A stretch of 30,292 nt of DNA from a virus, in IMG/VR virus record IMGVR_UViG_3300009104_000082, positions 1-30,292 of that record, one strand, 5' to 3'. Position 1 is the stretch's first letter. Each line of letters starts with the position of its first letter. Below the pieces are notes generated by a model. It ran no database searches and was not told where the DNA came from. It saw only the letters and a program-made list of their open reading frames with translations. Shown here piece after piece: positions 980 through 10,238 of the stretch. A program made the position numbers and the translations under genes.

Positions 980-1597
980 ATGGCAATCAAAGTAGCCAAT
1001 AATCAATCCTTGACTGCGATTACAGCTTTACCATCAGGAGTTTCTGGTGGTACTATGACTTTATTAGAAACGCAGACTGCATCAAGTAGTTCTACAATTT
1101 CTTTTACAAGTGGAATTGATAGCACCTATGATGAGTATGTGTTTAAGTTTATTAATATTCATCCATCTGCTGAAAGTGTTTTTTCTTTTCAAGCTGATAC
1201 AGGCACAAATACAAGTTATAACCAAACTATTACATCAACTTCTTTTAGAGCTTATCATAGAGAAGATGCTGGAGAAAGTGGATTAGGTTATATATCTGCA
1301 GCAGATCAGGCACAAGGAACAGGGTTTCAACCTCTTATGGAATCTCCACAATTAGGCACAAATAATGATGAAAACTTAAATGGAACTTTACATATTTATA
1401 ATCCATCTAGTACAACATTTGTAAAACATTTTATAGCAAGAACTTTATCACAAAATGATGATAGTCAACCAGCTTATGTTTTAGATGGATATTTTGCTGG
1501 GTACTTTAACACAACCTCAGCATTAACAAGATTTCAATTTAAATTTGCATCAGGAAACATAGACTCAGGAACAATAAAATTATATGGCATTAGTTAA
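980..1597 (+). CDS. Tandem adhesin-like paralogue 1 (205 aa)
   Basis: First of three adjacent genes coding for paralogues of 203-206 residues. Shared landmarks are an N-terminal MALVK/MAIKV..NN segment, QTASSSSTISF at residues 32-42, a YNPSSTTFVKH block in the middle and GTIKLYGI at the C-terminus. The protein is rich in Ser, Thr, Asn and aromatic residues, has no signal peptide or membrane segment, and looks beta-structured. A well-placed AGGAG lies before the ATG (aaaggagtaatcaATG). Position between a tail fibre and tail chaperones suggests a virion surface or receptor-binding protein. Family name not recognised; the role is inferred from place, composition and paralogy. Confidence 0.65.
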   Translation: MAIKVANNQSLTAITALPSGVSGGTMTLLETQTASSSSTISFTSGIDSTYDEYVFKFINIHPSAESVFSFQADTGTNTSYNQTITSTSFRAYHREDAGESGLGYISAADQAQGTGFQPLMESPQLGTNNDENLNGTLHIYNPSSTTFVKHFIARTLSQNDDSQPAYVLDGYFAGYFNTTSALTRFQFKFASGNIDSGTIKLYGIS

Positions 1598-2204
1598 ATA
1601 CAACAACAATTCTATAAGTGCTATTACATCAACAGGATTAACTGCTGGTGCTATGACTTTAATTAAAGAACAAACAGCATCTTCAAGTTCTACTATTAGC
1701 TTTGTGGATGGAACATCAGATGTAGTCTTGGATAGCACATATCCTATTTATTTATTTAAAATTATAAATCTTCATCCATCTGGCGATGATATGAAAGTAG
1801 GATTTCAAGGAAATGCTGCTGGTGGAAGTGGCTACAACGAAACAATTACATCTACAGTTTTTTTAGCTTATCATGATGAAGGAGATTCTGGAACATCATT
1901 AACTTACAGTACAACAAGAGATGAAGCACAAAGCACAGATTTCCAAGATATTATAGATGATTTAGGAAATGATAATGATCAAAGTGCATCTGGCGAATTA
2001 TGGCTTTTCAACCCAAGTTCTACTACATATGTAAAACATTGGATGTCAACTATGCAAATTTATAATAGTGGTAATAATTCTGTAATTTTTAAAACTGCTG
2101 GATATTTCAATACAACTTCTGCTATTGACGAAATACAATTTAAACCAGCATCAGGAACTATAGACGCTGGCACAATCAAACTCTATGGAATTAAGGATTC
2201 ATAA
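1584..2204 (+). CDS. Tandem adhesin-like paralogue 2 (206 aa)
   Basis: Second of three paralogues, beginning inside the last codons of the first gene (14-base overlap) with no room for a separate leader, so translational coupling is likely. QTASSSSTISF (residues 30-40) is identical to copy 1, followed by a VDGTSDVVLD insert shared with copy 3 but absent from copy 1. The central block FNPSSTTYVKHW and the C-terminal GTIKLYGI are conserved, while the stretch between them varies. The pattern of conserved ends and a variable middle fits a virion-exposed protein family under diversification. No enzyme motif is visible. Confidence 0.65.
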   Translation: MALVKYNNNSISAITSTGLTAGAMTLIKEQTASSSSTISFVDGTSDVVLDSTYPIYLFKIINLHPSGDDMKVGFQGNAAGGSGYNETITSTVFLAYHDEGDSGTSLTYSTTRDEAQSTDFQDIIDDLGNDNDQSASGELWLFNPSSTTYVKHWMSTMQIYNSGNNSVIFKTAGYFNTTSAIDEIQFKPASGTIDAGTIKLYGIKDS

Positions 2205-2815
2205 TGGCTTTAGTTAAATTAAATAATAGAGGTGTAAGGTCAGCTACTGCGTTTGGAAGTATTACAGGATTAGGTAGTATGACATTTATTAAAAAACAAA
2301 CTGCTTCATCATCTGCAACTATATCTTTCGTTGATGGAACATCGGATGTTGTTCTGGATGATACTTACAAGGAATATTTATTTACTTTTAATAATATTCA
2401 TGCAGAATCAAACTCTGGTTTTAGTTTTAATTTTAGAGATGGGGGTACAGATTATGATGCTACAAAAACAACCACTCATTTTTATGGTTATCATAATGAA
2501 TCTGGTAGTTCTAGTGGATTACAATATACTACAAGTTATGATTTAGCACAATCGACAGATTTTCAACGAATTGGTGATAATTTAACTACAGATGCAGACC
2601 ACAATTTATGTGGATATTTACATTTATTTAACCCATCATCTACTACATTTGTAAAACATTTTATAGCAACACTTCAATTTAATTCAGGTACACAATCTAC
2701 ACAAAGTTTTTGTGCTGGTTATTGTAATGTAACTGCTGCAATTGATGGAGTACAATTTAAAATGAGTTCAGATGACATAGACGCTGGAGACATCTGCCTC
2801 TATGGTATAGCTTGA
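2204..2815 (+). CDS. Tandem adhesin-like paralogue 3 (203 aa)
   Basis: Third paralogue, starting on the stop codon of copy 2 (TAATGG). It keeps KQTASSSATISFVDGTSD near residue 31, FNPSSTTFVKHFIA in the middle and a modified C-terminus (DIDAGDICLYGIA in place of GTIKLYGI). It is closer to copy 2 than to copy 1 in the N-terminal third because both carry the VDGTSDVVLDD insert, whereas the FVKHFIA block is closer to copy 1, so the copies may have recombined. Likely exposed on the tail tip or fibre; function inferred only. Confidence 0.65.
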   Translation: MALVKLNNRGVRSATAFGSITGLGSMTFIKKQTASSSATISFVDGTSDVVLDDTYKEYLFTFNNIHAESNSGFSFNFRDGGTDYDATKTTTHFYGYHNESGSSSGLQYTTSYDLAQSTDFQRIGDNLTTDADHNLCGYLHLFNPSSTTFVKHFIATLQFNSGTQSTQSFCAGYCNVTAAIDGVQFKMSSDDIDAGDICLYGIA

Positions 2816-6270: not shown

Positions 6271-7014
6271 TTAATTATCCCAATAATTATTCATTGAAGT
6301 CATAATATATTTTGCTCCAATAAAAGCATTGAGAAGTTTTTTATTTAAAGGAATTTCCTGAACATCAATCTTTTTATCACTTTTTGGTAATCTAACCACA
6401 AGTGCTTTTGAGATTTTTTGTTTAGTTTCTTCCTCATACGCAAACCAATAAGCATTTAATTGTAAATAATAATCAAATGATATTTGGTTACTTGTTTTAA
6501 TATCAATCAAAACAAGATTTTCTTCCTTGTCTTTAACAACAAGGTCAAGAGTACCAGCATAATTATATTTTTTACAATATAATTTTTTTTCTATTTCAAT
6601 AGGCTCATACTCTTGATTTTCCCACCATTTCAAAAACAAGTTCCAACAATTTACAACTCGTTTATCATTTTGAGTAGGAATTTCTTTGCCTTTAAGATAA
6701 TCTTCCACCAAACCATGAACAACTGTTCCTATTCGTCCAGCTTCTTTCATTATCTTATCAGTAGCACCTTCTGCTTCAGCAAATATCTTTTCTAAAGATA
6801 ATCTATCTAATTGTATATTATCATTTAGCATTTGATTAATTTGTCTTTTTGCTTGACCTAAAGGAAATTGTACTTTCCAATTAGTTAAGCCATCTTTAAT
6901 CAAACCTCTAGATGTTATGCCTGTTACAGAGGGAACTTTTTTTCCACCAACTTTGTATGTATGCGTTGGTTCGTCATAGTATAAAACAATACCATTTTTT
7001 AGATTGTATTGCAT
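6271..7014 (-). CDS. PD-(D/E)XK exonuclease, RecB/Cas4-like
   Basis: A 247-residue nuclease of the PD-(D/E)XK superfamily, likely a phage recombination or DNA-processing exonuclease. Motifs in order: H18 in the N-terminal DEPTHTY element and SVTGITS nearby; R94-IGTVVH100 (the GT.VH helix); AGTLDLV with metal ligand D157; LIDIKTS with D171 and K173; and the motif-IV helix YLQLNAYW with Q185 and Y189. All key residues are present, so the enzyme should be active. GAAAGGG precedes the start. Two genes downstream in the operon may encode accessory proteins. An annealing partner is not recognised, though the upstream DUF932 protein occupies a plausible place. Confidence 0.85.
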   Translation of the reverse strand: MQYNLKNGIVLYYDEPTHTYKVGGKKVPSVTGITSRGLIKDGLTNWKVQFPLGQAKRQINQMLNDNIQLDRLSLEKIFAEAEGATDKIMKEAGRIGTVVHGLVEDYLKGKEIPTQNDKRVVNCWNLFLKWWENQEYEPIEIEKKLYCKKYNYAGTLDLVVKDKEENLVLIDIKTSNQISFDYYLQLNAYWFAYEEETKQKISKALVVRLPKSDKKIDVQEIPLNKKLLNAFIGAKYIMTSMNNYWDN

Positions 7015-7024
7015 TTTTCCCTTT

Positions 7025-7318
7025 CTAACTAAATCGTTGCCAAAAAAAGTTTATATCATAATTATAGTATTTTGATAATGCAAACATTTTAGCAACATCA
7101 GTTTTAATACCTTTTTCAAATTTATATAAATCATAAATTGAATGAAAGTATTTTTTGTTGTCTTGAACAACCGCTTCCGCAGTCATATTTTTATTAAGTC
7201 TAAGATTCTTAAACTTAATACCAACAATACGATTAAAAAGTCGTCCATCTTCTTTTTCTTTAAAAGAAGCCAACATACCTTTTAACATAAAATTGGATTT
7301 GGTCTCTTTATCCATCAT
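7025..7318 (-). CDS. Degenerate XRE-type helix-turn-helix protein (97 aa)
   Basis: Residues about 32-92 follow the spacing of the XRE/Cro fold: GIKFKNLRLNKNMTAEAVV, then a variable turn, SIYDLYKFEKGIKT and a final helix pair ending YNYDINFFW. YKFEKG aligns with the YEKG motif of the phage XRE regulator at 10291. The second helix is less regular than in typical XRE proteins, so DNA binding may be lost or changed. AGAAAGG before the ATG supports the start. It could feed back on the divergent control region; this is inference. Confidence 0.5.
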   Translation of the reverse strand: MMDKETKSNFMLKGMLASFKEKEDGRLFNRIVGIKFKNLRLNKNMTAEAVVQDNKKYFHSIYDLYKFEKGIKTDVAKMFALSKYYNYDINFFWQRFS

Positions 7319-7327
7319 ATATCCTTT

Positions 7328-7594
7328 CTAGTTTAGAACCGAGTGTCCACGATTAACTAAACATTTTCTATAAATGGATTCATGCTGAGTATCAGCAGTT
7401 GGACTTTCTATCCAAAAGATTATGCCACCCCAGAAAGTACTATTGTTATCTGCAACAGTTTTACAATGTTGCAAATCATTAGTTATTTCTCTAGCTCTAT
7501 CTTCAGTGAAAGTACCACTTTTTCCAGCAGTATCAACAACAGGCTTATACGCACAGCTTGTTGCGAATAACATTAAAAGTATCCACTTTTTCAT
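7328..7594 (-). CDS. Phage-encoded lipoprotein (88 aa)
   Basis: The N-terminus MKKWILLMLFATSC is a short type-II signal peptide with a lipobox ending at C14, so the mature protein should be lipid-anchored. The rest is a small secreted domain with two further Cys (CKTVAD, YRKCLVNRGH) that could form a disulphide. The YRKCLVNRGHSVLN ending resembles small bacterial envelope lipoproteins. A good ribosome-binding site (GAGGAAAGGACAAC before ATG) favours this start, and the gene overlaps the end of the preceding one by 50 nt. Possible role: altering the host envelope or blocking superinfection. It is not near the main lysis genes. Confidence 0.68.
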   Translation of the reverse strand: MKKWILLMLFATSCAYKPVVDTAGKSGTFTEDRAREITNDLQHCKTVADNNSTFWGGIIFWIESPTADTQHESIYRKCLVNRGHSVLN

Positions 7595-7751
7595 GTTGTC
7601 CTTTCCTCTCTAGTTTATATTCTGTTTTATTTTTACATTTAGATAAGCAAACAGAATCATACTCATCTAAATAGTCTAAAGTGCTACGACCTTTTCTTTC
7701 TATTATTCTATTCATAGCACTTATTCTTTTATCTTTCCAAGAATTTACCAT
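7545..7751 (-). CDS. Small charged hypothetical protein (68 aa)
   Basis: The start is chosen at 7751, where GGGGAG lies 7 nt upstream; a GTG at 7793 would add 14 residues. The product is strongly charged, with two Cys in CLSKCKNK, and has no signal peptide. Its 3' end overlaps the lipoprotein gene by 50 nt in another frame, and its 5' end overlaps the tiny membrane-protein gene at 7745-7855. Overlap on both sides fits a tightly coupled accessory cluster. Function unknown. Confidence 0.5.
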   Translation of the reverse strand: MVNSWKDKRISAMNRIIERKGRSTLDYLDEYDSVCLSKCKNKTEYKLERKGQHEKVDTFNVIRNKLCV

Positions 7752-7855
7752 AGCAAACTCCCCAAGATAAAACCTACTAAAAAGCATATCCACTCTCTAC
7801 GATAATAGAGTTCTAATGCTTTTAAATCATTTTTACTTTTTCCAAAAAATAACAT
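7745..7855 (-). CDS. Tiny single-pass membrane protein (36 aa)
   Basis: A 36-residue frame beginning MLFFGKSKNDLKALELYY, followed by RREW and a hydrophobic segment ICFLVGFILGSLLW that runs to the stop. A positively charged stretch before a C-terminal membrane helix predicts a cytoplasmic N-terminus. AGGGAG sits 5-6 nt before the ATG and the stop overlaps the start of the next gene, which supports real translation. Together with the lipoprotein downstream it gives the operon two envelope products. Function unknown; inhibitor or exclusion peptide is a guess. Confidence 0.55.
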   Translation of the reverse strand: MLFFGKSKNDLKALELYYRREWICFLVGFILGSLLW

Positions 7856-7881
7856 ATTCACTCCCTTGTTTAAATTGATAA

Positions 7882-7901
7882 GTGGGGATAAAAATCCCCA
7901 C
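7882..7901 (-). terminator. Intercistronic hairpin after the cysteine-cluster gene
   Basis: A perfect 8-bp stem GTGGGGAT / ATCCCCAC with an AAAA loop (UUUU on the minus-strand RNA), 4 nt after the stop of the gene ending at 7906 and before the ribosome-binding site of the gene starting at 7855. The following U-tract is weak, so partial termination or mRNA end protection is likely rather than a full stop of the operon. It lacks the conserved core seen at 8647-8710. Confidence 0.55.
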
Positions 7902-7905
7902 CTAT

Positions 7906-8358
7906 TTATAATTCGCCTCTTTTACAAAACTTTAATTCGTTTCCGAATCTAGCTTTATCAAAGACTGCTAAATCATTTTCATTTTCATTATACCTAATTA
8001 TATATTTCCATAAGCTACCATCATCATCAAAAAAATCATGTTCTTTCAGATGTTTATGAATATTATGGACTTTATGTGTTTCAGCATAAATTACAAAAAC
8101 TTTATCTCTTAATTGTTCTTTTTGTTCAAGAGTAATATAAAAACCCACTTTATTAGGTTTCCATTCTTCAGGAACAATACCTTTAAGCCAAGCACAAATG
8201 AAATCTTTGCAAGTTTTAGGTCTATCATTGTAGATTTTACAACCTACTCCGATTTCACAGTGCTTACACCAAGAATACATCTTGGTTTTAAAGTTTTTAG
8301 GTTTAAGTATATGAGGAATTTTGCAACATAAATTGCAATCTCCACATTTACGATTCAT
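7906..8358 (-). CDS. YkgJ-like cysteine-cluster (zinc/iron-chelating) protein
   Basis: Nine Cys fall in the first 55 of 150 residues: C5, C8, C11, C12, then C31, C34, C40, C50 and C55, in the arrangement CxxCxxCC ... CxxC ... C ... RPKTCKDFIC. This matches the YkgJ-type cysteine cluster thought to bind zinc or an iron-sulphur centre. The C-terminal two-thirds is helical and charged, with AETHKVHNIHKHL. Biochemical function of the family is poorly known; it is uncommon in phages. The gene overlaps the upstream coiled-coil gene by 11 nt and ends just before a hairpin. Confidence 0.72.
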   Translation of the reverse strand: MNRKCGDCNLCCKIPHILKPKNFKTKMYSWCKHCEIGVGCKIYNDRPKTCKDFICAWLKGIVPEEWKPNKVGFYITLEQKEQLRDKVFVIYAETHKVHNIHKHLKEHDFFDDDGSLWKYIIRYNENENDLAVFDKARFGNELKFCKRGEL

Positions 8359-8614: not shown

Positions 8615-8646
8615 ATTTGTCCTTTTCTAGTTAATTTAATGTAGCT

Positions 8647-8710
8647 GACATCATCAGTACCTAGGAACAACCCTAGATAGACAAGGGGAATTAAATCCCC
8701 TTGTTTCGTC
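8647..8710 (-). ncRNA. Hammerhead ribozyme candidate A (type II permutation)
   Basis: Read on the minus strand from 8710: GAC (stem II, 3' strand), GAAA (8707-8704), stem III of 9 bp closed by a 6-nt loop (8704-8696 with 8689-8681), cleavage triplet GUC with C at 8680, stem I of 8 bp (8679-8672 with 8665-8658, one U.G pair, loop GUUGUU), CUGAUGA (8657-8651), one extra U (8650), then GUC (8649-8647) pairing with the first GAC. This is the hammerhead order with stem II open. Cleavage is predicted between 8680 and 8679. The final G of the upstream DUF932 stop codon (TAG, 8712-8710) is part of stem II. The extra U between CUGAUGA and stem II departs from the usual core. Confidence 0.75.
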
Positions 8711-10170: not shown

Positions 10171-10212
10171 TTATAAAAATGAGGTTTTAAAAAATATTCT
10201 TTTACGAATCAT
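10171..10212 (-). CDS. Possible 13-residue leader peptide
   Basis: A minus-strand ORF MIRKRIFFKTSFL with an excellent ribosome-binding site: AACTAGAAAGGGAGG ends 4 nt before the ATG. The same AACTAG-AAAGG segment precedes other genes of the minus operon. It may be a true leader peptide, or the remains of a gene whose start was kept while the body was lost. To be expressed it needs a promoter to its right, inside or beyond the XRE leader, which was not identified. Confidence 0.25.
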   Translation of the reverse strand: MIRKRIFFKTSFL

Positions 10213-10238
10213 AAAGCCTCCCTTTCTAGTTAAAAAAT

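Follow-up and report, generated by a model that had tools for sequence, protein, structure and literature searches.

Results

A type II hammerhead ribozyme follows the DUF932 gene

Sequence comparison confirms that a real and complete type II hammerhead ribozyme (HHR), predicted to cut its own transcript, lies at positions 8710-8642 on the minus strand of the window, by which we mean the whole 30,292-nt stretch of IMG/VR virus record IMGVR_UViG_3300009104_000082 analyzed here. The first-pass annotation had placed a hammerhead-type RNA in the spacer after the DUF932 gene, and this held: the element (HHR-2) matched Rfam model RF02276 (Hammerhead_II) at 8711-8639 with 43.8 bits (cut-off 37, E = 5.5e-6), and carried the full core, which relatives also keep. 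A covariance model built from the relatives' copies and both window copies (model R1) scored HHR-2 at 91.2 bits, and when the window was shuffled 200 times with its dinucleotides preserved, no match equaled even the weaker window copy. A nucleotide search of phage records with the HHR-2 spacer gave no match.

Read on the minus strand, HHR-2 is GAC GAA ACAAGGGGAUUUAAUUCCCCUUGU C UAUCUAGGGUUGUUCCUAGGUA CUGAUGA U GUC AGCUA. The 3' strand of stem II (GAC, 8710-8708) leads into the GAA of the core (8707-8705) and the nine-pair stem III hairpin (8704-8681); predicted cleavage falls between C8680 (C17) and U8679, as judged from core position, and is followed by the stem I hairpin (8679-8658; eight to nine pairs, loop GUUGUU at 8671-8666), both hairpins having been placed by a core scan and folding. 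CUGAUGA (8657-8651), an extra unpaired U (U8650) and the 5' strand of stem II (GUC, 8649-8647) complete the ribozyme. Behind them, the AGCUA tail (8646-8642) is predicted from loop-tail covariation across phages to form a pseudoknot with loop I (8670-8666), in which four of the five positions pair, including one G-U, and one is a U-U mismatch. Helices I and III are closed by loops and helix II is open, an arrangement supported by covariation. CUGANGA, GAA, the A15.1-U16.1 pair and H at position 17 are present in both window copies. The sequence bore out the initially reported bases and coordinates, the 9-bp stem III and the difference between GAC/GUC and GGC/GCC in stem II of the two copies.

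Stem II shares one base, G8710, with the DUF932 stop codon UAG (8712-8710). In standard type II hammerheads stem II directly follows CUGANGA, whereas in HHR-2 U8650 intervenes. A 76-nt stretch containing HHR-2 had a folding energy of -28.9 kcal/mol (z = -4.5); folded in isolation, its most stable predicted structure had a competing hairpin, CUGAU/GUCAG, in place of stem II. CUGANGA as a string occurs 22 times in the window against 11 expected, mostly as CUGAAGA and probably through codon use.

A second hammerhead precedes the DUF932 gene

HHR-1, also type II, was found at 9832-9773 on the minus strand by core scan, spacing and model R1 (65.4 bits). Its minus-strand sequence, GGC GAA ACAAAUAAAAUUUGU C UAGUUAUCGUGAUGGAUAGCUA CUGAUGA U GCC AGUCG, contains the full hammerhead core and a GGC/GCC stem II (9832-9778), and core position predicts cleavage between C9811 and U9810. 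HHR-1 was absent from the Rfam listing for the whole window even at E <= 10, a threshold at which HHR-2 was the only real hit; snoRNA, miRNA and other low-scoring Rfam hits were taken as chance.

Between the two hammerheads stands the DUF932 gene alone (9747-8710, minus strand, 345 aa; PF06067, E = 8e-6; PHROG 1362, E = 5e-37), so that cleavage at both predicted sites, after C9811 and after C8680, would release 1,131 nt. Its AUG lies 24 nt beyond the modeled end of HHR-1, and the AUG of the next gene (8614-8348, minus strand, 88 aa, no family) lies 26 nt past the point where the model match of HHR-2 ends. The predicted DUF932 structure (pLDDT 82) had no PDB match below E = 0.1, and a listing of papers that name DUF932 gave no pointer to its function. 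Start codons are repeatedly preceded by AACUAGAAA(A)GG, whether or not a hammerhead is there (on the minus strand of the window at 8620-8636 and 10210-10225); this string is probably an extended context for ribosome binding. A strong hairpin without a hammerhead core, GUGGGGAU/AUCCCCAC, was also seen at 7882-7901, just past an ORF ending at 7906.

The hammerhead fold is conserved among relatives of a SAR11 phage

Pelagibacter (SAR11) is an abundant ocean bacterium, and the window is a relative of the SAR11 phage HTVC112P, as identities of 78% for the terminase and 66.5% for the DUF932 protein indicate. We collected 44 further DUF932 relatives from IMG/VR, choosing loci by protein similarity alone. 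Types II and III taken together, a hammerhead stood upstream of DUF932 on the coding strand in 43/46 loci, which are not independent cases because many of the contigs are near-duplicates; in the remaining three the sequence ahead of the gene is no longer than 235 nt, so that every locus with enough upstream sequence had one. Type II HHRs were found on the coding strand at most DUF932 loci with a model from 27 distinct copies. HTVC202P, HTVC026P and HTVC111P yielded no hammerhead when scanned for types II and III. The downstream HHR is confined to one clade of these phages and, on the DUF932 tree, fits a single origin; on the same tree, upstream type II copies must have been gained or lost several times.

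Compensatory change between the two window copies had at first been offered as evidence for structure. That pairwise comparison is suggestive only, and the real evidence comes from comparison across phages. Examined for a missing core or broken stems, the relatives kept the core, with letters that were nearly invariant across related copies, and showed two-sided compensatory changes in 16/25 pairs among 27 distinct copies, both window copies included. Over stems I-III and the pseudoknot of these copies, 92.4% of cells were paired, compared with 76.9% after shuffling, and the covariation score was 0.449 (0.172 shuffled; slid registers at most 0.134), a value that is if anything too low, since MAFFT aligns stem III of the shortest copies wrongly. 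Pseudoknot cells were paired in 77% of cases in the DUF932 set.

The same pattern held in a set of 110 distinct HHRs drawn from a variety of phage contigs, in which stem II occurs as GCC/GGC, GTC/GAC, GAC/GTC, GGC/GCC, TCC/GGA, CCC/GGG and other variants. Full stem II pairing was found in 105/110, against a mean of 38 when partners were swapped. Loop I and the first seven tail bases formed at least four pairs in 94/110 (57 when swapped; 41/110 when a control stretch further downstream replaced the tail); such counts are inflated by related sequences, and a swap test on 70 clusters gave the same picture, 60 vs 34. Together, the near-invariant core and the many compensatory changes indicate selection on the fold. 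The extra U before stem II is optional even within one genome: in contig L172, four HHRs have it and nine do not.

Hammerheads sit between a stop codon and a ribosome-binding site

Between the end of the upstream type II copy and the DUF932 AUG there are 24-27 nt in 25/27 loci, and 34 and 41 nt in the other two. Every downstream copy among the DUF932 relatives sits at the end of the preceding ORF, which is DUF932 in the window and in L003, L004, L005, L018 and L045, and another short ORF in L002, L006, L007, L008, L042 and L043; overlap with the stop codon was seen in either case. The gene that follows the downstream HHR varies as well, its AUG standing a short way on with a ribosome-binding site between. 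Because the genes on either side vary while the HHR stays, the HHR belongs to the junction and not to one gene.

This placement extended to 118 distinct HHRs among the matches listed, a sample that leans to the extra-U form because it comes partly from a pattern search. An ORF stop fell -12 to +20 nt from stem II in 88/118 (9% at random), and in 60 of those 88 it fell within -1 to +2 nt. A ribosome site and start codon followed within 90 nt in 96/118, compared with 26% at random. In pattern-found loci with at least two HHRs, all HHRs were on the same strand among the matches listed.

The leader contains a type III hammerhead in most relatives, and a candidate structured RNA

A type III hammerhead was present in the leader of 31/46 DUF932 loci, HTVC112P included, just ahead of the ribosome-binding site. 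Its sequence is UAGUUU C UACAAC CUUUAGCAA GUUGUA CUGAUGA U GUU AGCUAAAUAAUAAAUAC GAA AAACUA. In HTVC112P (L046/L050, MN698246.1) a core scan placed it at 4003-3935 on the minus strand, with a predicted cut after C3996. The Rfam gathering search gave no match in L046, L011, L027, L025 or L010, although their type III core is plain, and none in HTVC202P, HTVC026P or HTVC111P. Loop I of the type III form, UUUAGC, pairs with GCUAAA, and the UUAAGC with GCUUAA of L030 and L039 is a compensated change. In these hammerheads, we also observed that the AACUAGAAA(A)GG string doubles as stem III. The leader HHR of the window, L003 and L018 is of type II, unlike the type III of most relatives.

Aligning the relatives and examining their covariation pointed to a conserved structured RNA of about 150-177 nt ahead of the leader hammerhead, at 10010-9834 on the minus strand of the window. 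It includes a long invariant stretch, AATTCTAAGTTT, and two-sided changes affect 10/24 predicted pairs in the A2 set. The window segment 9834-10010 had no Rfam match, and we regard the leader RNA as a candidate new structured RNA.

Long hammerhead arrays occur in other phages

Two contigs, L171 and L172, were reached by an IMG/VR pattern search for the HHR alone, among the matches listed. L171 carries 15 type II HHRs on one strand in about 10 kb, with 15 Rfam-model matches, and L172 carries 13 on one strand in about 9 kb. Most of them are placed after a stop codon and ahead of the following ribosome-binding site, and they are spaced at about 300-2700 bases. In the open-access literature, with most subscription papers outside the search, we found no report of type II arrays this long (13-15 copies).

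DUF932 (PF06067) recurs in unrelated contigs, at 6858-7898 (minus strand, E = 9e-34) in L171 and at 1228-2217 (minus strand, E = 6e-32) in L173, each time with a hammerhead 17-23 nt upstream. Having no background rate to be set against, this apparent link between DUF932 and hammerheads in unrelated phages is suggestive only. Both contigs also have a PHROG 421 (DUF2786/DUF7168) gene after a hammerhead.

Discussion

We consider it likely that HHR-2 is active, cuts the leftward early transcript after C8680 and, together with HHR-1, excises a monocistronic DUF932 message. HHR-2 would act co-transcriptionally, in the spacer that separates DUF932 from the gene after it; that such a cut would part the DUF932 message from the downstream genes, as the first-pass annotation proposed, follows from the position of C8680, and cutting in the cell is inferred. 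Since stems I and III of the type II form are both closed, a hairpin would be left on each new end: stem III, with a 2',3'-cyclic phosphate, at the 3' end of the upstream message, and stem I, with a 5'-OH, at the 5' end of the downstream one. The cut and the end groups are those expected from established hammerhead chemistry. Hairpin ends bearing a 5'-OH or 2',3'-cyclic phosphate are poor substrates for 3' exonucleases and 5'-monophosphate-dependent RNase E, which makes a separate message stability for each gene plausible. Because stem II overlaps the stop codon, cutting could also be coupled to translation, in that a ribosome on UAG would have to leave before the ribozyme folds. A cut in HHR-1 would release the leader RNA as the 5' product.

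Three features of HHR-2 count against this reading: the competing CUGAU/GUCAG hairpin could slow cutting, U8650 is extra, and the pseudoknot has only four of its five pairs. Where Perreault et al. 2011 (PMC3088659) discuss variation of the core, an extra U at this place is not among the variants. Moreover, the downstream HHR is present in one clade only, so an HHR is not strictly required at the junction behind DUF932. In favor of activity, arrays of three HHRs in the same study gave cleavage products in vitro, and one array did so in E. coli as well.

An alternative reading is that HHR-2 is a hammerhead by descent that has lost its activity or cuts very slowly, and that it persists as a spacer or as a recombination junction where exchangeable gene modules meet. 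The competing hairpin and extra U would fit, as would the persistence of the downstream HHR while its neighboring genes differ among relatives, and the variation of HHR number and type along the tree. Nevertheless, a near-invariant core with compensatory changes implies selection on the fold, and the extra U is tolerated as an option within a single genome (nine HHRs without it, four with it, in L172), which together make a relic unlikely. That HHR-2 is a mere hairpin terminator or processing hairpin with a coincidental hammerhead core is very improbable: stem III is indeed a strong GC hairpin adjoining the stop codon, and a weak terminator-like consensus match covers it, but the coding-strand tail after the hairpin, CUUGUCUAUC, is a weak U-run, and a terminator would leave the conserved, covarying core, stems I and II and the tail unexplained.

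Two further readings invoke circular RNA. Both cuts could yield a circular DUF932 mRNA through an RtcB-type ligase, as 5'-OH and 2',3'-cyclic phosphate are the ends that RtcB joins, and ligated or circular products were raised as a possibility, not detected, by Perreault et al. 2011 (PMC3088659). However, RtcB was absent from the window and 12 related or HHR-rich phage records (0/13), some of them fragmentary and with other ligases possible, and from 41/41 genomes of one Pelagibacter genus, compared with its presence in 9/14 control genomes. Circularization by RtcB is thus unlikely; on the absence of the gene from these phage records and genomes we rejected an RtcB-made circular mRNA, and we give the reading almost no weight. 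Just as hard to credit is the idea of a retrozyme-like mobile element, moving via circular RNA, of which the two HHRs would be the core or what remains. HHRs do flank a gene here, and small ORFs are inserted between successive HHRs in relatives, yet HHR-1 and HHR-2 differ in sequence and are not direct repeats, HHRs are separated by varying numbers of genes, and there is no reverse transcriptase among the annotated genes and tested proteins.

Excision of the DUF932 message by active hammerheads may be one case of a broader use. As a tentative proposal, which we hold with less than even confidence, hammerheads could serve as standard intergenic punctuation in some phages, standing at most early-operon junctions, giving gene-length messages with hairpin-protected ends and coupling cutting to translation termination, while in SAR11 phages the leader HHR (type II or III) would also free a leader RNA that has a function of its own. 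As the arrays of 13 and 15 copies suggest, self-cutting may set message boundaries in some phages, rather than RNases or promoters alone. The arrangement of HHR-2 and HHR-1 is unusually regular, and the most useful gain is a close counterpart in a cultured SAR11 phage: HTVC112P (host Pelagibacter HTCC7211) has its leader hammerhead at a known place, where in-cell cleavage and its effect on the message are testable.

Type II HHRs in phages are already known; they flank prophage genes, occur in clusters and have been tested in arrays of three, with their biological role left open (Perreault et al. 2011, PMC3088659). The window copies resemble those prophage HHRs (RF02276) in their core, closed stems I and III, short open stem II and loop I-tail pseudoknot, the last a feature of most type II members, and in flanking single genes in several copies on the coding strand. 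They differ in their SAR11 phage setting, the flanked DUF932 gene, the unpaired U and the stop codon within stem II; further differences are the mixture of types II and III at one leader and, in other phages, up to 15 copies per operon. Retrozymes and satellite or viroid hammerheads have the hammerhead chemistry and paired copies in common with the window pair, but they cut unit-length circular or multimeric RNAs, whereas the window HHRs separate unrelated protein-coding genes in a DNA phage, and the host genus tested is without RtcB. The HDV-like theta ribozymes of gut phages are likewise self-cleaving ribozymes in phage genomes, but they belong to another class and are reported to act in tRNA-based recoding (PMC10879173), with no placement between protein genes described. 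What is new here is the SAR11-phage setting, the type III HHR in the HTVC112P leader that Rfam missed, the covarying leader RNA and the near gene-by-gene arrays.
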